Shown here: positions 11,217-24,098 of the stretch, one piece after another | How the letters are laid out: each line of letters starts with the position of its first letter | Position numbering within the stretch: position 1 is the first letter of the stretch | NCBI RefSeq assembly: GCF_000014745.1 | Contig: NC_008347.1 | Coordinates: 372,001 to 436,000, forward strand | Source: Maricaulis maris MCS10 | GTDB taxonomy: Bacteria > Pseudomonadota > Alphaproteobacteria > Caulobacterales > Maricaulaceae | DNA length: 64,000 nt | Direction: 5' to 3' | Notes under the pieces: generated by a model | Told to the model about the DNA's origin: nothing | Database searches by the model: none | Seen by the model: the letters and a program-made list of their open reading frames with translations, nothing else | Position numbers and translations under genes: made by a program

Positions 11217-11966
11217 TCAGCCGCCCTGTCCGTCCGTATCGGAGTCAAGGGGCGTGTCCCAGACTGACCAGGTGGGTTCTTCGACCGGTTGTTCCTCGCG
11301 CCAGCGCTTGAGATAGACAGTGAAAGCCCGTTCCCGGGCCTTGTCGATCCGGGCCGTCGCCTCGCATTCCAGCTCGCCGCGATACATCCCCATCCGGCGA
11401 GGGATCATGTTGGCCCGGAAGGTCCGGTCATACTCGGCCTGCAGGGCCTCGGCCTCCTCGAATAACGGGTCATCATAGTCAATTTCCACGCCGTACCATT
11501 CCTGGATGTCATGCAAGACGAACCATTCGACGCCGAAAAACCGATTCATCACCGGCCATTCCGCGACCTCATGCTGGAACCAGGCGTAGATGCGCGCTTC
11601 GTCGGATTGCGGCCGGTACAAGCCCCACTGGAAAACGCTGATCACCACCATCCAGAATATCATCTTGCCCTGGAAAAAGCGGATCCAGATGGGGATGCGT
11701 TCGCGTTTGGGGCGAACGATGAGGACGCAGAACCAGAGTGCCAGCGTAACCGCATAAAGACTGGTCCATTGAAGCGTCGCCATGCCGAACCCCTCGCGGT
11801 CGAACCACCAGTCATAGAGCTCGCGACAGCTGTAGGAGACGGTCGAAAACAGATGGAGCAGATACCAGAAGAAGGCCGCCAGCATGATGATCCAGGTCGT
11901 CATCCAGGCATGGCGCACGGGAAGTGGCGCGGACCGTTCAACCTTGCGGCGGACGCGTCGCCTCAT
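11217..11966 (-). CDS. Uncharacterised membrane protein, 249 aa
   Basis: I do not recognise a family. The N-terminus is strongly basic (MRRRVRRKVER), followed by three predicted membrane helices at about residues 22-48, 63-85 and 100-118, then a hydrophilic tail of about 130 residues rich in charged and aromatic residues, including many tryptophans. Its ATG (11966-11964) overlaps by 4 bases the stop of the 32-codon paralogue remnant upstream, which continues the chain of ATGA overlaps from the five-gene array. This physical coupling suggests it functions with the array in the envelope. Confidence 0.72.
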   Translation of the reverse strand: MRRRVRRKVERSAPLPVRHAWMTTWIIMLAAFFWYLLHLFSTVSYSCRELYDWWFDREGFGMATLQWTSLYAVTLALWFCVLIVRPKRERIPIWIRFFQGKMIFWMVVISVFQWGLYRPQSDEARIYAWFQHEVAEWPVMNRFFGVEWFVLHDIQEWYGVEIDYDDPLFEEAEALQAEYDRTFRANMIPRRMGMYRGELECEATARIDKARERAFTVYLKRWREEQPVEEPTWSVWDTPLDSDTDGQGG

Positions 11967-12061
11967 CCGGCCTCACCGGGCAGCGCCCGAGCGGCCAACG
12001 AATGTCCAACGGCCAGCCAGTTCTGATCTTTCAGGGCGCGGGCGATACGGGCGAGGATCAT
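11963..12061 (-). pseudogene. 32-codon remnant of a sixth array paralogue
   Basis: Directly after the last full array member is an in-frame ORF whose first 18 residues (MILARIARALKDQNWLAV) are the conserved N-terminus of the array family, after which it reads GHSLAARALPGEAG and stops where the other members enter the membrane helix. Both ends keep 4-base ATGA overlaps with their neighbours (12058-12061 and 11963-11966). It looks like an internal deletion that joined head to tail: LPGEAG resembles the MPGEAP near the C-terminus of the member at 12807-13532. It may still be translated and serve to couple the genes on either side. Confidence 0.7.
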
Positions 12062-12810
12062 TCGTCCAGCTCCGCATTGATGAGGGCGAGCAGGGCGCGC
12101 GCCTCGTCCTCCCGGGCCAGGATGCTGGCGGTCTGGAACTGCCCGGTTTCCCGACTGGTTCGCAGATAGGCGAGGAAGGCGGGATTGTTGCGGGCGGCGT
12201 CGAGCACGGTGTCGATGTCATGGTCGGAGAATAGCGAGAACCCGTGCGCGAACAATACCGGCAGGGCCGCGCTGCGAATGTCCCGGAAGGTGTTCAGATT
12301 CCTCTGGAAATCGTCATAACCGGCATAATAGCGCTGGATGGAAGAGCGCAGCTCGCCGGCCTCGATCAGGCGCAGGCTGCCGCCATTGACCAGGCTTTGA
12401 TATCCCGTACGTCGCCCGGTGACGCCGCGGATCAGGTTGACCCGCGCCAGAAGCATCGGCAGGTCGGCCTCGGTCACGATGGGCAGGAGGGTCGCGTCAA
12501 CCGTGCCGCCGGGCGCCGTCGACATCGATCGCAACCCGGCCCCGTCATTGGCCTCGGTCAGCAGGTACTCCGCCGCGGCGAGACGCCAGAGGCTGGCATC
12601 GCGGGTCAGCTCAATGGCCGTGATGTCGGCCCGGATATCATCGCGAACTTCGTGCAATTGCCGCGTGATCACGTCCTGTTCGGCGCGGTCGGCATTCCAG
12701 GCCGTGACCTGAAAGCCGATCACCACACCCAGGATCACGATCACGAATTCGATGCCGACGGCGAGCCAGCTCTGGTCCTTCAGGGCGCGGGCAATGCGGG
12801 AGAGGATCAT
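12058..12810 (-). CDS. Array paralogue 5: single-pass membrane protein, 250 aa
   Basis: Fifth full member of a run of paralogues. It starts MILSRIARALKDQSWLAVGI, followed by a single hydrophobic helix (about residues 18-38) ending GFQVTAWNADR, then a roughly 200-residue probably helical domain that would sit outside the cytoplasm. The family motif, here LVNGGSLRLIEAGELRSSI with a following YYAGY, lies near the middle. Start and stop each overlap neighbours by 4 bases. The layout (helix, WNxxR, G-x-L-x-LI, YY) resembles my recollection of DUF6090 proteins, but that link is unverified. Function unknown. Confidence 0.8.
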   Translation of the reverse strand: MILSRIARALKDQSWLAVGIEFVIVILGVVIGFQVTAWNADRAEQDVITRQLHEVRDDIRADITAIELTRDASLWRLAAAEYLLTEANDGAGLRSMSTAPGGTVDATLLPIVTEADLPMLLARVNLIRGVTGRRTGYQSLVNGGSLRLIEAGELRSSIQRYYAGYDDFQRNLNTFRDIRSAALPVLFAHGFSLFSDHDIDTVLDAARNNPAFLAYLRTSRETGQFQTASILAREDEARALLALINAELDE

Positions 12811-13532
12811 GGCGCGTTTGCCTCCGGGGCTTCGCCGGGCATTGCTGCGAGCACGTCACGTGCCCGTTCCAGCGTGCCCTCATGCCAGACCCGGTTGACC
12901 AGGTTGGCGCGGGTGGTGAGGCGGGCGGCCGTGTAGACCCCGGCCGACTGGCGTATCTCCGCTAGGGCGGCATAGAGGTGTGGTGGCAGGCTGTCGGGGT
13001 CATTCGAGGCGTAGGCCTGAACCTCCAGAAGCAGGCCGGCATTATCGGTGATCAATCGTGCCAGAGAGGCATAGGCCAGTTCCTGGCGCCGCACCTGCTC
13101 GTCAAACTCGACCAATGCCTCGCGCAGGGCTTCGGAACGGATCAGCCGCATCTCGCCGGAGGCCACCAGTTCGGCATAGGTCGCTGAGCGTCCATTGGGC
13201 ACCGGCGTGCCGATGGCGTTTTGCAGGCCGATGAAGAATTCCAGATCGCTGACCTCGCTTTGATCCTGACGCAAAAGGGCCTCGAACGCCTCGCCGGCCT
13301 CGATACGGGCATCCAGCTGTTCGATGACGGTTGCCGTGCGCGTTTCGATCTCGGTGAAGTCGGCTTGTAGCCGCTCCAGGATCAGGACTTCACGCTGATG
13401 CTCGATCCGGGTCTCGTTCCAGGCGGAAATCTGAAAGCCGATCACCACGCCGGCCAGCACGATGATGAATTCGACGATGACGGCGAACCAGTTCTGGGTC
13501 CGCAGCGCCTGGGTGATGGAGGAGAGGATCAT
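12807..13532 (-). CDS. Array paralogue 4: single-pass membrane protein, 241 aa
   Basis: Fourth member. It starts MILSSITQALRTQNWFAVIV, has one hydrophobic helix ending GFQISAWNETR, then an amphipathic helical region with an acidic run (RLQADFTEIETRTATVIEQL) and the family motif ELVASGEMRLIRSEALREAL near residue 120. The C-terminus ends AAMPGEAPEANAP, part of which recurs in the 32-codon remnant. ATGA overlaps link it on both sides. The soluble half differs strongly from the other members while the N-terminal 40 residues are nearly constant, suggesting a shared anchor with a specialised outer domain. Confidence 0.8.
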   Translation of the reverse strand: MILSSITQALRTQNWFAVIVEFIIVLAGVVIGFQISAWNETRIEHQREVLILERLQADFTEIETRTATVIEQLDARIEAGEAFEALLRQDQSEVSDLEFFIGLQNAIGTPVPNGRSATYAELVASGEMRLIRSEALREALVEFDEQVRRQELAYASLARLITDNAGLLLEVQAYASNDPDSLPPHLYAALAEIRQSAGVYTAARLTTRANLVNRVWHEGTLERARDVLAAMPGEAPEANAP

Positions 13533-14266
13533 GGCGAGGTCTCCGGAGCGGGCACGGGCGAGGGCTGGCCCAATTCTTCCGCCAGTGAGGTGCGAAGCTG
13601 GTCGACCTCGTTCTTCAGCACGCGCAGAAAAAGGGCGGCCGAGCGGTTCAGATAGATTGCAAAGGCCAGATTGTTGGCCAGCTCGATATCGTCCGGGGTG
13701 AAACTGTCAGCCAGGTTGACCGAGTCCACGCCCAGACCATCCATCGTGACGCGAAGATGGGGACGCAGTGTGGCGACGATACCGACCTGCTGGTCCTTGA
13801 TCTGGTCGATGACGCCGTGGGCATCGGCCTCGACCAGCGGCAGGTTGGCGAGTTCTGCGCGCAGAGCCTCATTGCGGATGAGGCCGAGCCGGCCGCTGGA
13901 GATCAGCTCGTGCAGCGCCGCCGACTGGATCTGGACTTCCGAAACACGCGTGATGGCCAGAAGCGCGAACGTATCGCGCGCCATCGTCTCGCGGTCGCCG
14001 GCATCGAAGGCGGCCAGAAAGCGTTCCGCCTGCTCGCGCGCATCATCAAGATCGCCGTTGGCATCGTCCAGCTCGTCGCTGATAACCTCGAACTCACTGA
14101 AGAGCCGTTCCAGATAAGCCTGCTCCAGCCCCCGTTCCTGACGCGCCTCATTCCAGGCCGAGACCTGGAAACCGACCACCACACCGGCGATGACGATGAT
14201 GAATTCAAGGCTGACGGCGAGCCAGTTCTGGTCGCGCAGGGCCTGGGTGATGCGGGAAAGGATCAT
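13529..14266 (-). CDS. Array paralogue 3: single-pass membrane protein, 245 aa
   Basis: Third member. N-terminus MILSRITQALRDQNWLAVSL, one helix ending GFQVSAWNEAR, then a probable coiled coil (about residues 45-85, rich in E, D, L and A, with YLERLFSEFEVISDELDDAN) and the family motif ELISSGRLGLIRNEALRAEL. The C-terminal region is proline-rich (PSPVPAPETSP). Linked by 4-base overlaps on both sides. No catalytic motif seen; the coiled coil suggests self-association or assembly with the sister proteins. Confidence 0.8.
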   Translation of the reverse strand: MILSRITQALRDQNWLAVSLEFIIVIAGVVVGFQVSAWNEARQERGLEQAYLERLFSEFEVISDELDDANGDLDDAREQAERFLAAFDAGDRETMARDTFALLAITRVSEVQIQSAALHELISSGRLGLIRNEALRAELANLPLVEADAHGVIDQIKDQQVGIVATLRPHLRVTMDGLGVDSVNLADSFTPDDIELANNLAFAIYLNRSAALFLRVLKNEVDQLRTSLAEELGQPSPVPAPETSP

Positions 14267-15012
14267 GGCGCGGCCTCATGTTCGATACCCAGCTCCGCAT
14301 CGACCGCCGCGTGAAGCGAGCGGAAACTCTCATTGGGGCCTTCCAGAACCGCGCGCATGAAGTAGACCGACTTGGAAATATTGTCCGCCAGCTCGTTGAG
14401 GAAACGCGGGTCTGATCTCATGCCTGCACCGTCGCATCGCGCCGAGCCGTCGAAAAGCGGGTTCCAGTCCTGCGGATCGTCCGGGTAGTTGAAACGGAAA
14501 TATTGCGGGTGTCTGGCCGACAGGTTGTAGATCACGTGATTGATCGCCGTGTCGATCTCTGCAGACCAGCCATTGCTCAGAAAATGTTGGGTGATCGCCT
14601 CCCGCACGGGCAAGGGCCGGATGAGGTCGAGCTCGCCGGTTGAAAGCAGCTCGGTCAGGATGGGAATGTCGAGCGACGGCGAGTTGAAGACATGCGATTG
14701 CGCCAGGGCATTGCATTGGGCCGCAGTCAGCTCGCCTTCGCGGTCCCCGAACAGTATGGCGCTGGCGGAAATCAGCAGGTCGCGGTTTCCCGCACGGTCG
14801 GCCGCCCAGTCCCAACGGTCCGAGCTGACGTTTTCGAGGTCCGAATGCAAGCGCTCGAGCAATGCAGCCTCTTCGGCCCTGGCCTCGATTGTGGCGCGCC
14901 AGTCCGTGACCTGGAAACCGATCACCACGCCCGCAATCACGATGACAAACTCGATGGCCACGGCGAACCAGTTCTGTTCGCGGATGGCCTTTGTGATGCG
15001 GGCTAGGATCAT
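14263..15012 (-). CDS. Array paralogue 2: single-pass membrane protein, 249 aa
   Basis: Second member. N-terminus MILARITKAIREQNWFAVAI, one helix ending GFQVTDWRATI (WR in place of the usual WN), then a helical domain with the motif ELLSTGELDLIRPLPVREAI. Unlike the others it has cysteines in the outer domain (AAQCNALAQ, then SARCDGAGM), which could form a disulphide if periplasmic. Stop and start overlap the neighbouring members by 4 bases. Function unknown. Confidence 0.8.
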   Translation of the reverse strand: MILARITKAIREQNWFAVAIEFVIVIAGVVIGFQVTDWRATIEARAEEAALLERLHSDLENVSSDRWDWAADRAGNRDLLISASAILFGDREGELTAAQCNALAQSHVFNSPSLDIPILTELLSTGELDLIRPLPVREAITQHFLSNGWSAEIDTAINHVIYNLSARHPQYFRFNYPDDPQDWNPLFDGSARCDGAGMRSDPRFLNELADNISKSVYFMRAVLEGPNESFRSLHAAVDAELGIEHEAAP

Positions 15013-15791
15013 GGCGCGTCTCCTTCATCCGGGACGGCACTGTCGAGCAGGTTTCGCCAGTAGGTCTGGCCGCGCACTTCGACGCTGGTCTCGATCGCCC
15101 GATGCCGGATCAGCGGCAGGATGGAGGGCGTGTTGCGCAGATGATCGGCGATTGCCTCGATCGCCGCGTCATGTCCGTCGATCTCGCAGGGACGGTCCAG
15201 CAGGTTGTCCAGAGATGCGTAGTCACCAAGGCTCAGCCCATCGGGTGTCTCCGCACAATTGTTCGCCAGAAAGTCGTAGAGGGGCCGGTCGGCCAGTTGG
15301 AAGAAGGCTTGTCGATAGGGACGATCCGGGGCCATCAGAGTCATTTGCTCAAGCGTCGTGTCGTAATACTCAACGGCAACGTCAATGAGGGCGCGATCAT
15401 TGATGAGATTGATGCCGCCGGTTGCGACAAGCTCGTCATAGGTGGCGCGGATGATGGTGAAATTGATCATCTGGGTTGCCCGAAAGGCCGCGATGACCAG
15501 GGCTTCATCATCGATCTCGTGGCGACCTTCCAGCGCGTCGACGACTGTCTGGGCGTGGTCCGAGACCTCGGCGTTGTAGGCCCGGATCGCCGCGATGCGC
15601 CATTGCTCATTGCGCATGTCCTGGATCAGGCGTTCGGTCAGGACTTCGGCGCGCGCTACAGCCTGGCGCTGGTCATTCCAGGCGGAAATCTGGAAACCGA
15701 TCACCACGCCGAGGATGACGATGACAAACTCGATGGCGACGGCGAGCCAGTTCTGGTCTCGCAGGGCCTTTGTGATGCGGGCGAGGATCAT
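15009..15791 (-). CDS. Array paralogue 1: single-pass membrane protein, 260 aa
   Basis: First and longest member. N-terminus MILARITKALRDQNWLAVAI, one helix ending GFQISAWNDQR, then a helical domain with the motif ELVATGGINLINDRALIDVA followed by VEYYDTT. Two cysteines (NNCAETPDG and RPCEIDGHD) are about 20 residues apart, again compatible with a periplasmic disulphide. Its ATG overlaps the stop of the three-helix membrane protein upstream, so the chain of 4-base overlaps starts there. Function unknown. Confidence 0.8.
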   Translation of the reverse strand: MILARITKALRDQNWLAVAIEFVIVILGVVIGFQISAWNDQRQAVARAEVLTERLIQDMRNEQWRIAAIRAYNAEVSDHAQTVVDALEGRHEIDDEALVIAAFRATQMINFTIIRATYDELVATGGINLINDRALIDVAVEYYDTTLEQMTLMAPDRPYRQAFFQLADRPLYDFLANNCAETPDGLSLGDYASLDNLLDRPCEIDGHDAAIEAIADHLRNTPSILPLIRHRAIETSVEVRGQTYWRNLLDSAVPDEGDAP

Positions 15792-16216
15792 GGCGCGGGC
15801 CCGGCGGTTTCCGGCCGGTCAATGCGCTTGGCGCGAACCACGAAGAAAAAGCCCAGCGAGCCGATATAGCTGACGGCCAGAAGGATGGAGATCATGACGG
15901 GCATGGCCCCCATGCCGGCGCCGCCCGGCCCGGCCGGTCCGAGCCAGGCGAGGTCGGCCGACTGGCTGGCGGTTTCATGGATGTGCACGCCCAGGGCGGC
16001 AAAGTCGGAAAAGGCGAAGAGCACGCCCGATCCGGTCAACACGGCGCCGATCGTGTAGAGCACGAGAAAGAGAGCCGCGACCCAGCGCTCCATGCGGTGG
16101 GCGAGGAAGAAGGACGCGGTCAGCATGGCGAAGACCAGCGCCATGAAATTGGAAAAGATGAAATTGGCGGTGTTGAGATATTCCGAGAACAGCAGCGCGA
16201 GTTCGAAATCAGACAT
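15788..16216 (-). CDS. Small membrane protein heading the paralogue array, 142 aa
   Basis: A 142-residue protein with three hydrophobic helices (about residues 20-38, 43-70 and 108-130) and a glycine-rich loop (GPAGPGGAGMGAMP) before the last helix. I do not recognise a family. ATG 16216 follows GGGGAGG, a strong ribosome site for the whole downstream chain. Its stop overlaps the first array paralogue by 4 bases. It could be the membrane platform for the single-pass proteins that follow; this is inference from coupling only. Confidence 0.75.
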   Translation of the reverse strand: MSDFELALLFSEYLNTANFIFSNFMALVFAMLTASFFLAHRMERWVAALFLVLYTIGAVLTGSGVLFAFSDFAALGVHIHETASQSADLAWLGPAGPGGAGMGAMPVMISILLAVSYIGSLGFFFVVRAKRIDRPETAGPAP

Positions 16217-16302
16217 TGTCACCGCCTCCCCAGCCGGTAGAGCGGTATCCAAGCCCATTTCACCGATTGGCAAAAGGGGAAACCGGACCGATCGCGTCCC
16301 GC

Positions 16303-17295
16303 TCAGGCCGGGCCGGAGGCATTGTCTTGCGCGTAGAGTGCTTCCAGCGTTGCGACGACCGGGTCGCGAACGATCTGGGCAGCGCTGAAATGGAAGACGC
16401 GGGCAATATCGGACCCTTCGACCAGGTCGATCAGGTGGGCGAGGCCGGACGGGCCTTCATCCTTCAGCTCGACATGGCTCGGATCACCGGTCAGCACGAT
16501 GCGGGAATTCTGACCGAGGCGGGTGACCGCCATCCGGGTCCTTTGAATATTCATGTTCTGCGCTTCGTCGACGATGACATAGGCATTCTGGAAAGTCCGG
16601 CCGCGCATCCGCCCGACCGGCATGATTTCGAGCCGGCGGGCCTCCTGCAACCGTTTCAGCTCTTCCGGGCCGACCAGGTCGGTGAGCTCGTCCTCGATGG
16701 CGGCGAACTGGCCGTCATAAGCGGTATCCGTCCGTGTCTGCGCCGTGACCACTTCACCGCGCTCGAAGACATGCGGGCGGGCGATGACGAGATGACGGAA
16801 TTTGCCGTCTTCCAGCAGGTTGAGGCCGGCAGCGAGCGCCAGATGGGTCTTGCCGGTCCCGGTCGGTCCGGCGCCAATGACGACTGGCGGTGACTTGGCC
16901 AGCAGCGCGCTCATGAAGGCGTGCTGCATGACGGTTTTGGGTCGCACGGCATTGCGCAGACCGGGCACACGGAAGGCCAGGCCGCGTTCCAGGGCCTGTC
17001 GCAGGCTGGCTGCAATGGCGTCGGCTGCCCAGATATGGTCCGGCGAGGCGCCGTCCTGACTGGCTTCGGCGGCGGTCTGCACGACTTCCTGCAGCATCTG
17101 GACCGCCGCCTCGTCGCCGGCCAGATCCAGACGGTTTCCGGTCAGGTGCAGGGTCGCATGATAGGGGGCCAGCTCGGGCACGAGCCGGGCCAGTACTTCA
17201 GCGCCCGCTGACCGGATCTGCCCGGCGAAGGCGTTGGACAGGTCCAGCGAGGCGCGGAACGTCTGGTCAGGGTCGGTGGTCGGTCTTGTGGTCAT
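16303..17295 (-). CDS. PhoH family ATPase
   Basis: A 330-residue PhoH-type P-loop protein. Walker A GPTGTGKT is at residues 143-150, and the Walker B region VIVDEAQNMN comes near residue 245, with the typical RMRGRTFQNAYVIVDEAQ context. An N-terminal nucleic-acid-binding-like region precedes the ATPase. ATG 17295 follows GGTGAG and begins just after the stop of the TolB-like gene (17300); an ATG at 17307 is an alternative. PhoH proteins are linked to RNA metabolism and phosphate stress, often beside ybeY, which is not here. Its place in an envelope-protein operon is unusual. Confidence 0.9.
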   Translation of the reverse strand: MTTRPTTDPDQTFRASLDLSNAFAGQIRSAGAEVLARLVPELAPYHATLHLTGNRLDLAGDEAAVQMLQEVVQTAAEASQDGASPDHIWAADAIAASLRQALERGLAFRVPGLRNAVRPKTVMQHAFMSALLAKSPPVVIGAGPTGTGKTHLALAAGLNLLEDGKFRHLVIARPHVFERGEVVTAQTRTDTAYDGQFAAIEDELTDLVGPEELKRLQEARRLEIMPVGRMRGRTFQNAYVIVDEAQNMNIQRTRMAVTRLGQNSRIVLTGDPSHVELKDEGPSGLAHLIDLVEGSDIARVFHFSAAQIVRDPVVATLEALYAQDNASGPA

Positions 17296-17299
17296 TGTC

Positions 17300-19126
17300 T
17301 CACCCATCTTTCAGCGCGAATTCGAGACCGAAGAGCGGTGGCCAGGGGAAGCCGGCCGCCTCCATCTGGGCCTGAAAATTCGGCGTGGCTTCGATATCGA
17401 ACGGGGCCCCGCACTTGCAGCCCACGACGGCCAGCATCAGCGGCAGACCGCGGGTGGGGCGGGCGTCGATCAGTGCAGCCGCGGCGTTGGCGCCCTCCCG
17501 GTTGCCGATCAGCGCATTGACTATGAGGCGGGTGCCAAGCGGCAGATCGGGATCGGCCAAGGCTTCCGCGGCGAGCCGGTTGGCGGTTTCGCCGTCATTG
17601 AAATAGGACGCCTGGGAAATCTCGAAGAGGCGTACGCTGACCGGATCCTCTTCACGCCAGGCAGCAAGATCAGCCTCGCTGGTGCGGCGACCGAGAGCTA
17701 GATTCAGGTTGGGTCGAAGGAAGGCGTTCACATAATTGTTGGCTTCCAGAAATTCGACATGCGCCACCGCTTCCTCCGCGCGTCCGGCGTGCATCATGAT
17801 GGTCGCCGTCAGCAACCGGGTCTGGTGAGCCAGCGGATCGCATCGCAGATGTCGGAGATCATTGTCGATAAAGTCGTCGAACCGGCTGGCCAGCAAGGCC
17901 AGATTGGTTGCCCAGTTACTGTCCAGGCAGCGCGTCTGGTCGAAGATCTGGTCGGTGACCTCGGCTGCGTCGGTCCAGTCGTCGGAGAAGAAGATCTGCT
18001 CGCCGCGAGCCAGCAACAATCGATCCGGATCGTCGGCATTGGCATTGGCCGCTGCGATCAGGCGTTCAGCCTCGGCAGCGAGCGCGGCGTACTCCGCTGC
18101 CTGGAAGGTGCCGGGTTCGACCAGCAGCTCCACCATCGCGTGGGCGTAATAGTCGCCTTGAAGCAGGTAGGCCTGGGACAGGGTGGGATCGAGCTCGGTG
18201 GCCCGCTCGAAATAGGGTTCCGCCTCGATCATGCGGGACGCGTCAATAAAGTGATGTCGGGCCATGATTTCATAGCCGCGCTGATAGGCGATGAAGGCCT
18301 CGACATTGCCACTGCCGGACTGCCGCAACCGCTCGCGCAAGCGGTCGTCCAGCGCCACGCCCATCAAGGCGGCGATATTCTCGGCGATGTCTTCCTGGAT
18401 GCCGAACACATCGTCCAGCACCCGGTCATAGGTGCCCGACCACAAATGCACATCATCCGAGGCGCGTATCAGCTGCACGGTCACGCGCACCTGGTTGCCC
18501 GAGCGCCGCACGGACCCTTCGACGACATGGGCGACACCGAGTTGGGCCGCGATCTCGCCGATCGAGGGCAGGTCGTCCCCACGAAACTGGAAAGCCGAGG
18601 TGCGTGACGTCACCAGCAGGTCGGGCAGAGCGGCCAGCGAGTTGAGGATTTCCTCGGTCAGCCCGTCGGCGAAGAAACGGTCTTCCTCCGCGGTCGAGAA
18701 GGCGGCAAAGGGAATAACCGCGACCGAGCGGGCGTCGAGCGGCACGGTCGCTGGTGCGGCGGCTGTCGGGGCCTGTCGGGACGGCATGAATTGCGACCCG
18801 ACGACCAGTGCGGCGACCAGTGCCAGCCCGCCCAGTATGGCGAAATCGATCCGGCGACCGGTCTGCGGCGCAATACTTTCGCCCTCCGGCACGGCGGCGG
18901 TCGGGCGCATGCCCTCCGGCGTCATCTCGAACGCCCAGGCCAGCAGCAGCGCGACGGGCAATCCCAGTGCCAACAGGACGATGACCAGCGTATCGGTCCA
19001 GCCGGGCAGGTTCAGCGGCGCCTCGATGAGTGTCGTCACCTGGATCAGCAGCCAGCCGACCACCAGATAGGCGGCGGCGACGCGGAACACATTGCGACGG
19101 CGGAGTTCTGTGAGGAATTGGTTCAT
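17300..19126 (-). CDS. TolB-like/TPR membrane protein 1, 608 aa
   Basis: N-terminus MNQFLTELRRRNVFRVAAAY leads into two membrane helices (about residues 13-32 and 40-64), then a third at about 95-112. A TolB-like/FlgO-type domain follows (RSVAVIPFAAFS, FFADGLTEEILNSLAALPDL, HVVEGSVRRSGNQVRVTVQL), then TPR-like helical repeats to the C-terminus. ATG 19126 overlaps the stop of the next TolB-like gene by 4 bases. Such proteins are common in caulobacterial and sphingomonad genomes and are poorly characterised; the TolB-like part probably faces the periplasm. It lacks the C-terminal RPxGxDDFxC motif of its two paralogues. Confidence 0.85.
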   Translation of the reverse strand: MNQFLTELRRRNVFRVAAAYLVVGWLLIQVTTLIEAPLNLPGWTDTLVIVLLALGLPVALLLAWAFEMTPEGMRPTAAVPEGESIAPQTGRRIDFAILGGLALVAALVVGSQFMPSRQAPTAAAPATVPLDARSVAVIPFAAFSTAEEDRFFADGLTEEILNSLAALPDLLVTSRTSAFQFRGDDLPSIGEIAAQLGVAHVVEGSVRRSGNQVRVTVQLIRASDDVHLWSGTYDRVLDDVFGIQEDIAENIAALMGVALDDRLRERLRQSGSGNVEAFIAYQRGYEIMARHHFIDASRMIEAEPYFERATELDPTLSQAYLLQGDYYAHAMVELLVEPGTFQAAEYAALAAEAERLIAAANANADDPDRLLLARGEQIFFSDDWTDAAEVTDQIFDQTRCLDSNWATNLALLASRFDDFIDNDLRHLRCDPLAHQTRLLTATIMMHAGRAEEAVAHVEFLEANNYVNAFLRPNLNLALGRRTSEADLAAWREEDPVSVRLFEISQASYFNDGETANRLAAEALADPDLPLGTRLIVNALIGNREGANAAAALIDARPTRGLPLMLAVVGCKCGAPFDIEATPNFQAQMEAAGFPWPPLFGLEFALKDG

Positions 19127-20970
19127 GGCAGGTCGGGATCCTCGATCCAGCCGCATTCGAAATCGTCTGCGCCAATCGGGCGGCATTGCGGGGGAAAGCC
19201 GTTGGCCCGCCAGTAAGCCGGGAGGCCCAAGTCGATGAGGACCTGTCGCCGCGTGATCTGAAATCTGTCACGGGTTGCGGTCCGGAAGCGCTCCGGTACG
19301 AGCGGACTCCACACTTCCGCGTGACTGTAAACCGTCTGGCCGGCGACCCAGAAGTCGAATACGACGCGCTGATAACCCTCCAGCGAGCCGTGCAGGGCGA
19401 CGTAGGACTGACGGCTCATCGCCTCCAGCTCGGCATCGGTCGCGTCGAGGTCGGTGTAGTAGCGATAGAGTGCTTCGGTCAGATGAGGCGTGTCTGCAAC
19501 CGCAGTCATATAGGCGATGAAATAGAGACCGGCCTGGTCGTTGCCCAGGGCGAAATAAGCCGGGGCTACGACGGACAAAAGGGACTCTTGCCCGGCCACC
19601 ATGCCCTCGGCAAACAGCTCTGTCGCGCGACGGGTGTTGCCGCGGTAGAGCTCGGCAAAGGCGAGATATCGCCGACAGATATGATAAGCCGGATCGATAT
19701 CCAGACAGGTCTGGTAGTCGGCCGCGGCGGCATCGAACTGTCCGACATTCAAAGATATGCCGCCGCGAAAATACCAGACGTTCGCGGTTTCCGGTTCGCG
19801 TTCGACCGCGGCATTGGCCTGCGCCATGGCGGCCTCCCAGTCAGCCGAGGCGGCGAGCAGGTTGGATCGGATCGAGTAGGGCAGTGCGAGGGCGGGGTTC
19901 AGTTCTGTAGCGCGGTCAGCCGCATCCTGGGCAAGGGCGATGAAGTCGCGGTCCATGTCCCGTGTGTCGATCCAGCTGGGTGTGACCGAATTGAAGGCGG
20001 CCAACAGCGCCCAGGCCCGGGCAAAGCGCGGGTCGACGGTGACCGCGCGTTCGAGCAGCGAGATGCCTTCCAGCACATTGTCCGAGGACCGGGCGAAGAA
20101 GATTGCCTGAGCCTGCAGGAACAGGTCATAGGCATCAAGATCGCCGGTGTCAGATTCGATGGCGACGCTTTCCAACCCGTCAAGATCCAGCGCTTGCGAG
20201 AGCGCCTGGACGATCTCGTTGGCAATATCATCCTGGATGGCGAAGACGTTCTCCGCGGTGAGCGGGCGGTCAAACGTGTCGGACCAGAGATGACGGTCGC
20301 CTTCGGAATCGATCAGCTGCGCGGTGATGCGAAGCTGGTCGCCGGACTTGCGTACCGAGCCCTCCACAACATGGCGGACATTCAAGGCGCGAGCGATATC
20401 CGGGATGCCCGTGGTGTCGCCGCGAAACTGGAAGGCAGAGGTGCGCGAGGCGACATGCAGCCCGTCGACCCGGGTCAGGACATTGAGGATTTCCTCGGCC
20501 ATGCCATCGCCGAAATAGGCCTGGTCACCCGCCGGCGAGAGGTCGGCGAAGGGCAGGACGGCGACCGAGGCATCGGCCGGCGCCTGAATTATGGCTTCAC
20601 CGGAGGAAGCTTCGATCGGGGCGGAATCCGGGCGGGTCACGAGCTGGAATCCGGTCATGGCGATCACAACAGCCAGCAGGCCGATGATGACGAAATCCGT
20701 TCCGCCGAGCGGGCGGAATCCGGTGGGGCTTTCGGCGGTTTGCGTCGGGCGCATGCCCTCCGGCGTCATCTCGAACGCCCACGCCAGCAGCAGCGCGACG
20801 GGTAGGCCAAGGGCCAGCAGGAAAAAGACGAGCGTGTCGGTCCAGTCGGGCAGGTGCAGAGCCGGTTTGGCGACCGAGGTCACCTGGATCAGCAACCAGC
20901 CGACCACCAGATAGGCGGCGGCGACGCGGAAGACATTGCGACGGCGAAGTTCTGTGAGGAAGGCGTTCAT
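19123..20970 (-). CDS. TolB-like/TPR membrane protein 2, 615 aa
   Basis: Paralogue of the neighbouring gene: MNAFLTELRRRNVFRVAAAY, three membrane helices, then a TolB-like domain (SVAVLPFADLSPAGDQAYFG, DGMAEEILNVLTRVDGLHVA, HVVEGSVRKSGDQLRITAQL) and TPR-type repeats from about residue 290. The C-terminus carries AYWRANGFPPQCRPIGADDF followed by a cysteine, shared with the paralogue at 22281-24098. ATG 20970 is the first residue of the conserved N-terminus; a longer reading to 21057 lacks similarity to the paralogues. It heads the long operon that runs down to the paralogue array. Confidence 0.85.
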   Translation of the reverse strand: MNAFLTELRRRNVFRVAAAYLVVGWLLIQVTSVAKPALHLPDWTDTLVFFLLALGLPVALLLAWAFEMTPEGMRPTQTAESPTGFRPLGGTDFVIIGLLAVVIAMTGFQLVTRPDSAPIEASSGEAIIQAPADASVAVLPFADLSPAGDQAYFGDGMAEEILNVLTRVDGLHVASRTSAFQFRGDTTGIPDIARALNVRHVVEGSVRKSGDQLRITAQLIDSEGDRHLWSDTFDRPLTAENVFAIQDDIANEIVQALSQALDLDGLESVAIESDTGDLDAYDLFLQAQAIFFARSSDNVLEGISLLERAVTVDPRFARAWALLAAFNSVTPSWIDTRDMDRDFIALAQDAADRATELNPALALPYSIRSNLLAASADWEAAMAQANAAVEREPETANVWYFRGGISLNVGQFDAAAADYQTCLDIDPAYHICRRYLAFAELYRGNTRRATELFAEGMVAGQESLLSVVAPAYFALGNDQAGLYFIAYMTAVADTPHLTEALYRYYTDLDATDAELEAMSRQSYVALHGSLEGYQRVVFDFWVAGQTVYSHAEVWSPLVPERFRTATRDRFQITRRQVLIDLGLPAYWRANGFPPQCRPIGADDFECGWIEDPDLP

Positions 20971-21171: not shown

Positions 21172-21702
21172 TCAGGCGCGGTGCGGCAGGAGTTTGCGGT
21201 TGCGCAGCAGGGCGGCGGAGATCAGGCTGACCAGCACGCCGATCGGGAAGATCTCGATGAAGGTCATCGGCAGGCGGAACCACCAATTGCCATACATCTC
21301 CATCATGGCGGTCATCTCGTCGCGGAAGGCCGCCAGTTCCGCAGCGGTCGCGCCGGCGGCTTCGCGGGCGGCGATCTGGCCGCTGAGATAAGCCTCCATG
21401 AAGGCGCGGTCGGTGGCGTTGAAATAGATCTCCCAGGCGACGACGTAGAAAACACCGGCCAGGGCGGCAACGCCAAGGCCCAGCGCCAGGGCCGGCCAGA
21501 AACGGATCACCCCGCCCAGATTGATGTCGCGATGGCGTTTGATGGCGACGAAGATGATGGACAGCGACAGCAACATGCCCAGATAGCCGATGGCTTCCGA
21601 GCCAACGCCGTCGGACCCGGCCAGCAGCGTCATGCCGAGGATCAGGAAGAGGGCGACAAGGCTGCCGGCGATGCTGCCGAAAACGAGAATGATGCGGGTC
21701 AT
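21172..21702 (-). CDS. DUF4199-like membrane protein
   Basis: A 176-residue protein with four hydrophobic segments (about residues 3-26, 32-48, 65-90 and 145-165), separated by a hydrophilic stretch with an alanine/glutamate helix (REAAGATAAELAAFRDEMTA). It fits my recollection of DUF4199 proteins, small inner-membrane proteins of unknown role. ATG 21702 begins the first helix; a longer reading to 21840 would overlap the LuxR gene and is not supported. It is 103 bases downstream of the membrane-anchored LuxR gene and probably in the same operon. Confidence 0.72.
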   Translation of the reverse strand: MTRIILVFGSIAGSLVALFLILGMTLLAGSDGVGSEAIGYLGMLLSLSIIFVAIKRHRDINLGGVIRFWPALALGLGVAALAGVFYVVAWEIYFNATDRAFMEAYLSGQIAAREAAGATAAELAAFRDEMTAMMEMYGNWWFRLPMTFIEIFPIGVLVSLISAALLRNRKLLPHRA

Positions 21703-21805: not shown

Positions 21806-22300
21806 TCACCCGTTTGACCGGGCCTGGGGGGCGGTGGCATCGCCCGCCGCGGGGATCAGGCGCAGATCGCGCGCGGTCTCGATTGCCTGGATGCGGCTGG
21901 TGACGTCGAGCTTGTCGAACAGGCGGGCGATATGGGTCTTCACCGTGTTGGGCGAGACGCCAAGCGTGCGGGCGAGTTCCTTGTTGCTCTCACCGCTGAC
22001 CAGCGCCTCCAGCACGTCCAGTTCGCGCGGGGTGATGGCGAGGCTTTTCAGCGCCGCCTCATTGCGCACAAAGGGCGCCGGGGGCGCCTGGCGGGTGAGC
22101 CGCATCCCGACCCAGACGCCCAGCCCGGCGAAGGCGGCGCCGATCAGGCCGATCATGATTTCGAGCGGGATCGTCCGGGCCCAAAACCGGTATTGCAGCC
22201 ATTCCAGCGCGAAGGCCCCGAGCGCCAGCACGACGGCATAGAGGAGGGCGGGTCGCCAGACACCGCGTATGCCTGCAGGGTCAGTCACAGGTAAAGTCAT
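21806..22300 (-). CDS. Membrane-anchored LuxR-type regulator
   Basis: A 164-residue protein with two N-terminal hydrophobic helices (about residues 14-34 and 45-67) and a C-terminal LuxR helix-turn-helix (about residues 90-150: LAITPRELDVLEALVSGESN, then LGVSPNTVKTHIARLFDKLD). No receiver or ligand-binding domain lies between, so signalling must come through the membrane part or partners. ATG 22300 overlaps the end of the upstream TolB-like gene by 20 bases; GTG 22288 is an alternative. A DNA-binding protein fixed to the membrane beside TolB-like proteins suggests envelope-sensing control. Confidence 0.82.
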   Translation of the reverse strand: MTLPVTDPAGIRGVWRPALLYAVVLALGAFALEWLQYRFWARTIPLEIMIGLIGAAFAGLGVWVGMRLTRQAPPAPFVRNEAALKSLAITPRELDVLEALVSGESNKELARTLGVSPNTVKTHIARLFDKLDVTSRIQAIETARDLRLIPAAGDATAPQARSNG

Positions 22301-24098
22301 CAGCGCCGACCGGCCGGCAGATATCCGGGAAACCATGCTCGCGCCAATAGTCGAGCGTGCCGCTGGACCGGATCAATTGGTGGAAGGTCGGCGTCTGCCG
22401 GTAGCGTGACGCGATCGGCTGCCAGATCGACCCCGGCCAGACCGGAAGGTCTTCCGCGCCGAGCGGCATGAGCAAGAGCGATAACATCAAGGCGGGGTGG
22501 TCACGGTCGCCTGGCGGCATGTGGTCGAGCGCTTCGCGCAGCAGTTCTGAATGGTCGGCATCGGGGGTCTGATAGGCATCGTAAATATCCCCGACGCGCT
22601 GAAAGCCCGGCAATACCCAGGGATGATTGGCCGAAATCAGGAAGGCGAGCCGTTCGTCTTTCTCCGCCAGAACCGCGAAGTTGATCCAATTAGGGTTGCT
22701 CAGCCCGTTGGCCAGATTGGCCTCCATAGCCGCCAATGCTTCGTCCGTCCGGCCCATGACCGCCAAGGTGTCGTAGTAATTTTCGGCGCATGCTCCGTAC
22801 CGCGCCTCGATCTGCACGCAGGTCTGGAAGCTTGACAGCGCACCGTCCAGATCGCCGATAAAGAGCCGGCCCATGCCCAGCCAATTCTGGATTGTGGCGT
22901 CGTGGGGATTGAGCGCTGCCGCTCGATTCAGGTCCGTGAGAACCGAGCCAATGTCGCCCGGCTCGCGCTGGAATATCATCCGCTGCGATTGATGGCTGGC
23001 CCGAACCGCGATGGCAAGCGCATTGTCTGGATCCAGCGCCAGGGTTTGCCGGGCATAGCTTTCGGTCAGGGCCGCCTGGTCCACCCCGGCTTCGGGGCTA
23101 TAGCCATGGGACTCCCGCACATTTGAAATTGCTGCCCGCAAGGCCCAGGCTGCTGTGAAATCCGGCGACTGCCCGACGGCCTGCGCCAGCAGGTCGGCGG
23201 CGACGTCGAGATCGGTGCGGCGATGGAAAAGGTCGCGCGCCTGAAGATAGAGGTCATAGGCATCGACATTGTCCGTCAGCGGTGCGACCGCAATTTCGGG
23301 CGCTTGAATGTCCAGAACCTCGCTGAGGGCGCGGACGATGGCATTGGCGATCTCGTCCTGGATGGCGAACAGGTTTTCCGCCGTCAGCGACTGGTCATAG
23401 GTCTGGGACCACAAGTGCACATCGGTCCGGGCATCGATCAGCTGGGCGGTGATGCGGATCGTGTTTCCCGAACGACGGACAGACCCTTCCAGCACGTGGC
23501 GAACCCGCAGCCGTTCTGCGATCTCGGGCACGCCCATCGTATCACTGCGATACTGGAAGGCCGAGGTCCGCGAGGTGACGTCCAGCCCTTCGATCCGGAC
23601 CAGGACATTGAGGATCTCCTCGGAAATCCCGTCCGAGAAATATTGCTGGTCACCGGCCGGCGAGAGATCGAGAAAGGGCAGGACCGCGATCGAATTGTCA
23701 CTGGGGATGTCGTCGGCAATCGCGCCTGCGTCCGCTGTCGGCATTTCCGATTGGCCGGGCCGGGTCAGCATCTGGCTGCCTGCGATTACGGCGACGATGA
23801 CCAATGCGCCGATCAGCGCATAGTCGGGCATGCCCGCGGCCGGGACCTGGCTGGCCTCGTCCGCCGACCCGGTTCGCTTCAGCCCGTCCGGTGAGAGCTC
23901 GAACGCCCAGGCGATGAAGAGGATGACGGGAAAGCCGGCGAGCAACAGGACCAGGGCGAGGCTGTCGGCCCAACCGGGCAGGCCCGCAGCACCGCCGATG
24001 GTCGCGACGATCTGCATGATGAGCCAGGCGACGACCAGATAGGCCGCGGCCACGCGGAACACGCTGCGACGACGCAGTTCGGCAAGCAAATCCAACAT
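22281..24098 (-). CDS. TolB-like/TPR membrane protein 3, 605 aa
   Basis: Third paralogue: MLDLLAELRRRSVFRVAAAY, membrane helices at about residues 15-33, 43-66 and 92-108, a TolB-like domain (SIAVLPFLDLSPAGDQQYFS, DGISEEILNVLVRIEGLDVT, HVLEGSVRRSGNTIRITAQL), then TPR repeats. It ends with DYWREHGFPDICRPVGADDF and a cysteine, as in the protein at 19123-20970. It leads a separate operon with the LuxR and DUF4199 genes. Likely role: periplasm-facing assembly or sensing platform; not established. Confidence 0.85.
   Translation of the reverse strand: MLDLLAELRRRSVFRVAAAYLVVAWLIMQIVATIGGAAGLPGWADSLALVLLLAGFPVILFIAWAFELSPDGLKRTGSADEASQVPAAGMPDYALIGALVIVAVIAGSQMLTRPGQSEMPTADAGAIADDIPSDNSIAVLPFLDLSPAGDQQYFSDGISEEILNVLVRIEGLDVTSRTSAFQYRSDTMGVPEIAERLRVRHVLEGSVRRSGNTIRITAQLIDARTDVHLWSQTYDQSLTAENLFAIQDEIANAIVRALSEVLDIQAPEIAVAPLTDNVDAYDLYLQARDLFHRRTDLDVAADLLAQAVGQSPDFTAAWALRAAISNVRESHGYSPEAGVDQAALTESYARQTLALDPDNALAIAVRASHQSQRMIFQREPGDIGSVLTDLNRAAALNPHDATIQNWLGMGRLFIGDLDGALSSFQTCVQIEARYGACAENYYDTLAVMGRTDEALAAMEANLANGLSNPNWINFAVLAEKDERLAFLISANHPWVLPGFQRVGDIYDAYQTPDADHSELLREALDHMPPGDRDHPALMLSLLLMPLGAEDLPVWPGSIWQPIASRYRQTPTFHQLIRSSGTLDYWREHGFPDICRPVGADDFTCD

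Follow-up and report, generated by a model that had tools for sequence, protein, structure and literature searches.

A variable tandem array of genes for anchor-sharing membrane proteins, apparent distant relatives of DUF6090, in Maricaulis

The array and its membrane anchor

The window analysed in this study is the whole stretch of 64,000 nucleotides taken from the 3.37-Mb, single-contig genome of Maricaulis strain MCS10 (contig NC_008347.1). It contains five open reading frames (ORFs) of one protein family, which lie in tandem on the minus strand and encode proteins of 260, 249, 245, 241 and 250 amino acids, followed by a decayed sixth copy. Members of the family are designated by the type of their outer domain, the divergent part of the protein beyond the N-terminal anchor.

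15009..15791, minus strand: array member 1, outer-domain type C, 260 amino acids; 94% amino acid identity to a type C member of genome G076
14263..15012, minus strand: array member 2, type B, 249 amino acids; AlphaFold model with mean pLDDT (predicted local distance difference test) 92.3 and pTM (predicted template modelling score) 0.81
13529..14266, minus strand: array member 3, type A, 245 amino acids; the M. maris copy has another upstream neighbour, and identity to it begins at the first codons of A
12807..13532, minus strand: array member 4, type E, 241 amino acids; AlphaFold model with mean pLDDT 90.9 and pTM 0.82
12058..12810, minus strand: array member 5, type J, 250 amino acids; opens a stretch near-identical to M. 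maris
11963..12061, minus strand: decayed sixth member; anchor start retained, outer domain lost, ATGA overlap at both ends

All four junctions between the five ORFs were ATGA, which bears out the initial annotation of the window as five ATGA-coupled paralogues. The constant anchor and divergent outer domains described there were also found: 20 of 38 N-terminal positions were invariant in an alignment of the five proteins, and identity to the first protein was 27-32%. Hydropathy agreed with the proposed membrane anchoring in giving one hydrophobic, probably transmembrane (TM), segment at residues 15-33. The ExxxxGxLxLI motif ascribed to the outer domains stood in part; one L, the G and the final L-I were invariant, but the protein encoded at 12058 lacks the E, and two proteins have I or M in place of the L that follows G-x. 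A gene for a three-TM protein was coupled upstream by ATGA, as had been claimed. The gene for a 249-amino-acid membrane protein downstream had been read as coupled to the chain in the same way; it is not directly coupled to gene five, being separated from it by 91 bases that are occupied by the decayed copy, and the coupling runs only through this remnant.

The remnant (12061-11963) comprises 32 codons and a stop; it starts MILARIARALKDQNWLAVG and then has a different tail. The same remnant was found at the same place in M. maris (genome G066, locus L037), which indicates that the loss is common to both and that the coupling outlived it. Anchor sequences were otherwise rarely found away from the start of a called member (6 of 149 matches in 21 sequences). 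These six were the remnants of the window and of M. maris, a stub in L054, and three that lie at the edge of a locus or contig or are incomplete in another way. Two ORFs, L039:9012-9716 and L054:13237-13950, keep the anchor start, differ in the second half of the TM segment and have an outer part unmatched by the family model; they have the appearance of fusions between the anchor and a different domain.

To place the array among its relatives, a scan of bacterial and archaeal genomes was used, which gave 287 related stretches; the best 80 (73 loci) were analysed. The titles of these loci were mostly Maricaulis, Hyphobacterium, Robiginitomaculum, Hyphomonas, Hellea, Henriciella and Marinicaulis, and Gammaproteobacteria such as Marinicella, Wenzhouxiangella, Kangiella and Paraglaciecola were among them. 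Together they carry 368 family ORFs. The relatives lay mostly in arrays, and the scattered single genes that would have spoken against the initial annotation were not the rule. Of 295 same-strand junctions between neighbouring family members, 206 were 4-base overlaps and 38 were 1-base overlaps; 40 were at least 60 bases wide and 11 had other short distances. Short-overlap junctions among family members exceed chance. The largest locus was that of Hyphobacterium indicum (G007), with 23 members (the genome search scored 23 of 26 candidates). A model built from the five window rows matched in 64 of 119 family genomes. With a 70-row model 18 of 19 Maricaulis genomes matched, G084 and G123 through a distant relative only.

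DUF6090 (PF19578) had been suggested in the initial annotation as a lead to the family. The Pfam model gave 16.3, 11.5 and 18.0 bits on three of the five window proteins, and none of the five reached the gathering cut-off (best 18.0 versus 23.5 bits). In the reverse search, six ORFs above the DUF6090 cut-off scored 63-175 bits with the array-family model; two of the six, in L162 (63 bits) and L164 (87 bits), lack the N-terminal MILxR..QNW cap. Because DUF6090-positive ORFs score with the array model, the array proteins and DUF6090 were placed in one superfamily, so that a lead below threshold in Pfam was backed from the other side. The reverse profile search thus indicates common ancestry, with the array proteins as distant relatives of DUF6090. 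The two have the TM signature and a matching stretch in common; the window proteins differ in scoring below the cut-off and in carrying the cap. The DUF6090 model itself matched in 7 of 398 Pseudomonadota genomes, 5 of which passed the cut-off, and gave no match in 14 controls. Searches of the window proteins against NCBIfam gave matches only far under the curated cut-offs, and the best relative of solved structure found by sequence was a RecN chain at E 0.039. A distant relative similar in the TM segment and stalk was seen at L169:6278-6910 (about 490.3 kb in the window's own genome); comparable weak matches, of which two were inspected, are found in 16 of 19 Maricaulis genomes.

Types B and E were modelled with AlphaFold from 67 and 70 aligned rows, with the scores listed above. 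Both models have a short N-terminal helix, a helix from residue 15 to 88 that forms anchor and stalk, shorter helices and a long return helix. The two types are thus predicted to share one layout despite strongly different sequences. In fold searches nothing was found at E <=0.001, either in the PDB with both models or among viral models with one of them; a likeness to the ligand domains of chemoreceptors was noted, without significance (E 0.37 and worse). Within the TM segment, position 21 was D or E in all 352 full-length members of the 368 ORFs, and G28 was present in 351 of them. As the 73 loci were found through a peptide pattern that includes position 21, the acid was recounted, first on members lacking the pattern and then at loci retrieved by searches that did not use it. 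Acid 21 and G28 were each present in 117/117 of the former and in 139/139 members longer than 200 amino acids of the latter; the sets of 352, 117 and 139 members overlap in genomes. Position 32 was G or A in 337/337 members that also have W15 and Q34. The acid and the G-x3-[G/A] pair suggest assembly within the membrane. The N-terminal tail would be cytoplasmic and the helical bundle periplasmic.

Repertoires at one site and exchange of cassettes

Clustering by outer domain sorted 143 members, drawn from 20 loci, into 26 groups of at least two members and 27 singletons, 53 in all, a number that depends on the threshold and ran from 27 to 74 over those tried. Ten outer-domain types occur in both Maricaulis and Hyphobacterium. 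The window, M. maris (G066), G076, G026 and G009 have their arrays to one and the same side of shared HPPD and glyoxalase genes, with the following contents.

Window: C B A E J, remnant
M. maris (G066): A P E J, remnant
G076: H L G F A, DUF3500 gene, TPR (tetratricopeptide repeat) gene, D C B A E
G026: D I F G L D H G E
G009: I G D H E

HPPD was found in 18 of 19 Maricaulis genomes, and across these 18 the site holds from no member to about ten, in varying order. Eight of them have an array there that belongs to the clustering set. Among the other ten, type E stands alone in G120 and is broken in G046, and G119 and G122 have other members; no member was found in the stretch examined at the site in G038, G056, G084, G111, G121 and G123, of which G056, G111 and G121 hold members elsewhere in the genome. 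In the six E-bearing Maricaulis arrays of at least four members, type E was last (four) or last but one (two). Its position indicates that the interior of the arrays is less stable than their 3' end.

For comparisons of anchor identity and of synonymous sites, 8 of the 143 members were dropped (short, or without W15 and Q34) and 135 were kept, singletons being scored as differing in type. Trees were made with 68 of the 135, members of the ten types common to Maricaulis and Hyphobacterium-group genomes, and were compared with 300 label shuffles. The tree of anchor DNA required 10 changes of genus (shuffled mean 22.9, minimum 13). The tree of outer domains required 10 changes of type (shuffled mean 49.5) and 19 changes of genus, a number equalled by 21 of the 300 shuffles. 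The outer domains thus appear to be old types common to genera, and the anchors sort more by genus. Individual members gave a modest contrast of the same kind: by mean anchor identity 43 of 68 resembled other types within the genus more closely than the same type across genera, and by outer-domain identity only one of 68 did. At third positions of identical anchor residues, members of different types in one genome agreed at 0.63-0.72, against 0.44-0.50 expected from codon usage. Recombination confined to single genomes was considered and rejected, as the amino acid identity of different-type anchors was 0.731 within a genome and 0.738 between genomes of a genus. Homogenisation, if any, would therefore act at the level of the lineage.

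The window and M. maris were compared along the array. Where cassette A starts, identity rose from 0.41-0.57 to 0.92-1.00, and it dropped again where A ends; the genes on either side of A differ between the two genomes. The start of J brought a rise from 0.82-0.93 to 0.97-1.00. The jumps at the starts of A and J indicate that cassettes behave as units bounded at the anchor start. Synonymous divergence (dS) was 0.07 for J, 0.14 for A and 0.44 for E, and 0.13-1.06 for 14 neighbouring genes. The identity jump at J and a dS below that of all 14 neighbours argue that at least one stretch beginning at the anchor of J was exchanged recently. From these comparisons, cassettes appear to have moved between species. 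The outer domains of type M are 95-96% identical among three Hyphobacterium-group genomes (L039:7481-8266, L041:12698-13483 and L049:7008-7793), and several other common types are far more diverged on average, which may be another hint of cassette exchange.

The ratio of non-synonymous to synonymous substitution rates (dN/dS) was 0.06-0.24 in 11 near-orthologue pairs, which indicates purifying selection on the types compared. No positive selection was seen in the outer domains; four distant pairs gave 0.26-0.74 with dS near saturation.

Neighbouring genes and possible partners

The genes around the array in the window are as follows.

15788..16216, minus strand: membrane protein with about three TM segments, 142 amino acids (161 from a TTG at 16273); joined to the array on its upstream side by an ATGA junction; likewise placed in G066, G076 and G099
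11217..11966, minus strand: 249-amino-acid membrane protein downstream, coupled only via the decayed copy; a relative lies at the same place in M. maris
16303..17307, minus strand: extra (third) PhoH-like ATPase, 49% identical to a gene adjoining the G026 array
17300..19126, minus strand: three-TM "TolB-like" protein of the TPR group, array-associated
19123..20970, minus strand: second "TolB-like" TPR paralogue, 4-base overlap with the first
21172..21702, minus strand: DUF4199 membrane protein, also in G084 and G123 without an array
21806..22288, minus strand: two-TM LuxR-type regulator, also in G084 and G123 without an array
22281..24098, minus strand: third "TolB-like" TPR paralogue

The initial annotation had linked TolB-like proteins to the array. 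No TolB profile match was obtained for these proteins, which matched TPR models instead and have three predicted TM helices and, in part, TPRs; the link to the array was retained, as 9 of 12 places with such genes were at the array site. The TPR part is predicted to be periplasmic if the N-terminus is inside. The 12 places were found in 5 of 19 Maricaulis genomes after adjacent pieces had been merged, and one of them is a fragment at a contig end. Of the three off-site places, two are on other contigs of G111 and one lies 27 kb from a single family member at 1.57 Mb in the window's own genome. The TPR group was present at 14 of the 73 loci, among them those of Marinicella and Kangiella and small loci of Thioalkalivibrio and of a Cellvibrionales genome, so that it accompanies relatives in Gammaproteobacteria as well. 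Twelve genomes picked for a TPR gene at the locus gave 1 to 32 matches each. A weak FlgO match (12.0 versus 22.6 bits) was obtained in window:17300-19186, and one relative, in L136, passes the FlgO cut-off. From their co-location, the three-TM TPR proteins are possibly a common partner of the array proteins in the genomes that have them.

Besides the G026 copy, the PhoH-like gene had no other match above 42% identity in the 19 Maricaulis genomes. A search of the neighbours with PADLOC gave weak ATPase-type matches for PhoH and one weak AbiEi match (E 0.0078) for a DUF3500 protein. DUF3500 genes at L039:14980-16101 and L041:13480-14601 overlap the next array member by 4 bases and have, by eye, a signal-peptide-like start; those in L038 and L045 are 133 bases apart from the array instead. 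Some arrays contain or adjoin genes of a second family, whose proteins have one TM-like segment and, after it, a Q-x-R or similar motif (L050:6420-6968, L054:14720-15235, L111:5722-6267, L109:8263-8778 and L155:8872-9360); this family had no Pfam match above the cut-off. At L046:8397-9194 (G092) a gene that looks by eye like a transposase of insertion-sequence type lies opposite the last array gene with a 4-base overlap.

Possible function and comparison with known systems

The reading that we tentatively favour, as plausible but short of an even chance, takes the array as a repertoire, subject to recombination, of DUF6090-superfamily proteins that are anchored in the inner membrane, face the periplasm and serve in recognition, perhaps in an immunity-like way. 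Each protein is predicted to have a 14-residue tail, taken as cytoplasmic, one TM helix extending into a long stalk, and a helical bundle that would lie in the periplasm. The first 39 codons or so would be a common module acting at two levels. In the protein, the acid and the G-x3-[G/A] pair should enable all members to associate, either among themselves or with a partner common to them; in the DNA, the module together with the ATGA junction may be the common stretch that mediates gain, loss and exchange of cassettes, for which the patterns described above argue. Each conserved outer-domain type would presumably bind its own envelope target. The job would most likely be protection against, or detection of, different envelope-acting agents, a weak suggestion made because the repertoires differ at one site, can be absent and resemble known immunity arrays. 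A more ambitious form of this reading takes the family as a constant/variable system, in which one anchor serves as oligomerisation module and recombination handle for ordered operons of periplasmic recognition, with readout by TPR proteins and foreign envelope-acting agents as targets; as a whole we hold it to be quite unlikely.

A number of results weigh against the favoured repertoire. The array was not seen to be accompanied by a toxin, phage or ligand. For its five proteins PADLOC gave no match at E up to 0.1, and a tblastn search of phage and plasmid collections with the member at 14263-15012 gave no match. The sheath family of the type VI secretion system was found in 0 of 19 Maricaulis genomes and, among 14 controls, matched E. 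coli only. At the small loci no consistent toxin partner was seen among the neighbours scanned, which were 20 of 30 and covered 13 of 14 loci; the only toxin-antitoxin genes there were one CcdB and one ParD, members of families that act in the cytoplasm. TPR genes are absent from 14 of 19 Maricaulis genomes, and 11 of those 14 have family members. Within a type, the substitution rates indicate strong purifying selection and no sign of an arms race. The topology is a prediction from hydropathy. With regard to exchange, the anchor tree keeps a type signal (36 changes of type; shuffled mean 49.4, minimum 44). The drop of third-position agreement to expectation from codon 40 is partly expected, the comparison being ungapped beyond that codon. 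Agreement above expectation (0.59-0.66) was also seen between anchors that differ in both type and genus, so that sequence constraint may contribute to anchor similarity. Finally, the high identity at J (0.92-1.00) extends across the remnant and into the beginning of the downstream gene and is not that of a lone cassette.

The outer domains might alternatively be a repertoire of receptors that bind envelope ligands and signal through the TM helix to the TPR proteins or to the LuxR-type regulator, with a change of transcription as the outcome. As the members have no output domain of their own, a partner would be needed, and TPR proteins do co-locate with arrays; a LuxR gene overlaps the last array gene by 4 bases in G026 and by 1 base in G009, and the models show the weak, non-significant likeness to chemoreceptor ligand domains mentioned above. 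The LuxR and DUF4199 genes, however, remain at the site without an array in G084 and G123, the TPR genes are missing from most Maricaulis genomes, including 11 with members, and no fold match was significant. We regard this explanation as doubtful, though worth keeping in view.

By analogy with arrays in other bacteria, each outer domain could instead neutralise one competitor toxin that acts in the periplasm or on the membrane, the array being one of orphan immunity genes. The evolutionary form is like that of the esaG and tipC arrays (in an excerpt of PMC9484751) and of the DUF576 lipoproteins (in an excerpt of PMC10730906), and the variable repertoire and mosaic exchange fit it. Against this stand the purifying selection, the single layout of the two modelled types and the neighbours scanned, in which one CcdB and one ParD gene were the only toxin-antitoxin genes and no cognate toxin was found. 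Such a function is unlikely on this evidence.

The initial annotation had taken the genes for a multi-subunit inner-membrane assembly made in fixed ratio through translational coupling, an explanation that now appears improbable. A complex of fixed composition was largely refuted, because the subunit set differs among array-bearing genomes: loci have zero to 23 members, types come and go freely and their order is shuffled, type E is alone at the site in one genome and broken in another, 6 of 18 Maricaulis genomes have no member in the stretch examined at the site and 55 of 119 family genomes gave no match with the five-row model. The coupling by ATGA throughout, the conserved anchor motif, which fits assembly in the membrane, and the place of type E, nearly always at the 3' end, would suit such a machine. 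Short gene overlaps are moreover enriched for subunits of heteromeric complexes, according to an excerpt of PMC10666635. Given this enrichment and the anchor motif, the members that are present may still co-assemble despite the lack of a fixed composition. Overall, what the initial annotation observed was confirmed, and its interpretation was partly supported.

It is very improbable that the members are ion-coupled or force-transmitting TM subunits like MotB, ExbD and TolR, with the acid as proton site and a periplasmic part working on the envelope, for although every full-length member checked has a single N-terminal TM segment with an acid near its presumed cytoplasmic end, the five window proteins had no Pfam match to these families at E up to 1 and no channel-type partner was seen among the window neighbours scanned.

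MotB, ExbD and TolR are single-TM proteins with the N-terminus inside, a conserved acid near the cytoplasmic end and a periplasmic C-terminal part. The array members resemble them in the single N-terminal TM segment with its conserved acid; they differ in that no sequence relation was found, in their many variable paralogues and in the lack of a visible partner channel.

Recombining tandem paralogue repertoires are already known, and no description of the present family and form was found in the literature searched, in which DUF6090 is not mentioned and no relevant account of the array layout came up. A superfamily of hitherto unassigned role thus gains an anatomy, a TM signature and an evolutionary mode, which make its role testable. 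If the repertoire reading is true, many Hyphomonas- and Maricaulis-like bacteria and some Gammaproteobacteria would have, in a class of operons for inner-membrane proteins, an exchangeable layer of envelope recognition.

The closest likeness is to the immunity arrays of type VII secretion systems in Firmicutes (esaG, tipC; DUF576/lpl), which are tandem, non-identical paralogues of variable number that recombine through conserved blocks (excerpts of PMC9484751 and PMC10730906). The former source, in the excerpt, describes such recombination and variation in number for esaG and tipC and little evidence of recombination for the membrane immunity genes tsaI; the latter, likewise in excerpt, describes a tandem DUF576 lipoprotein that inhibits a secreted lipase toxin. 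The Maricaulis array likewise consists of tandem paralogues in variable number. For recombination through conserved blocks the evidence is one of pattern, to which sequence constraint may contribute, and no cognate toxin gene was found among the neighbours scanned, which are a part of all array neighbours. The proteins of the two systems are unrelated, and in contrast to the arrays of Firmicutes, that of Maricaulis has outer-domain types common to genera, a single 5' anchor block and genes coupled by ATGA.

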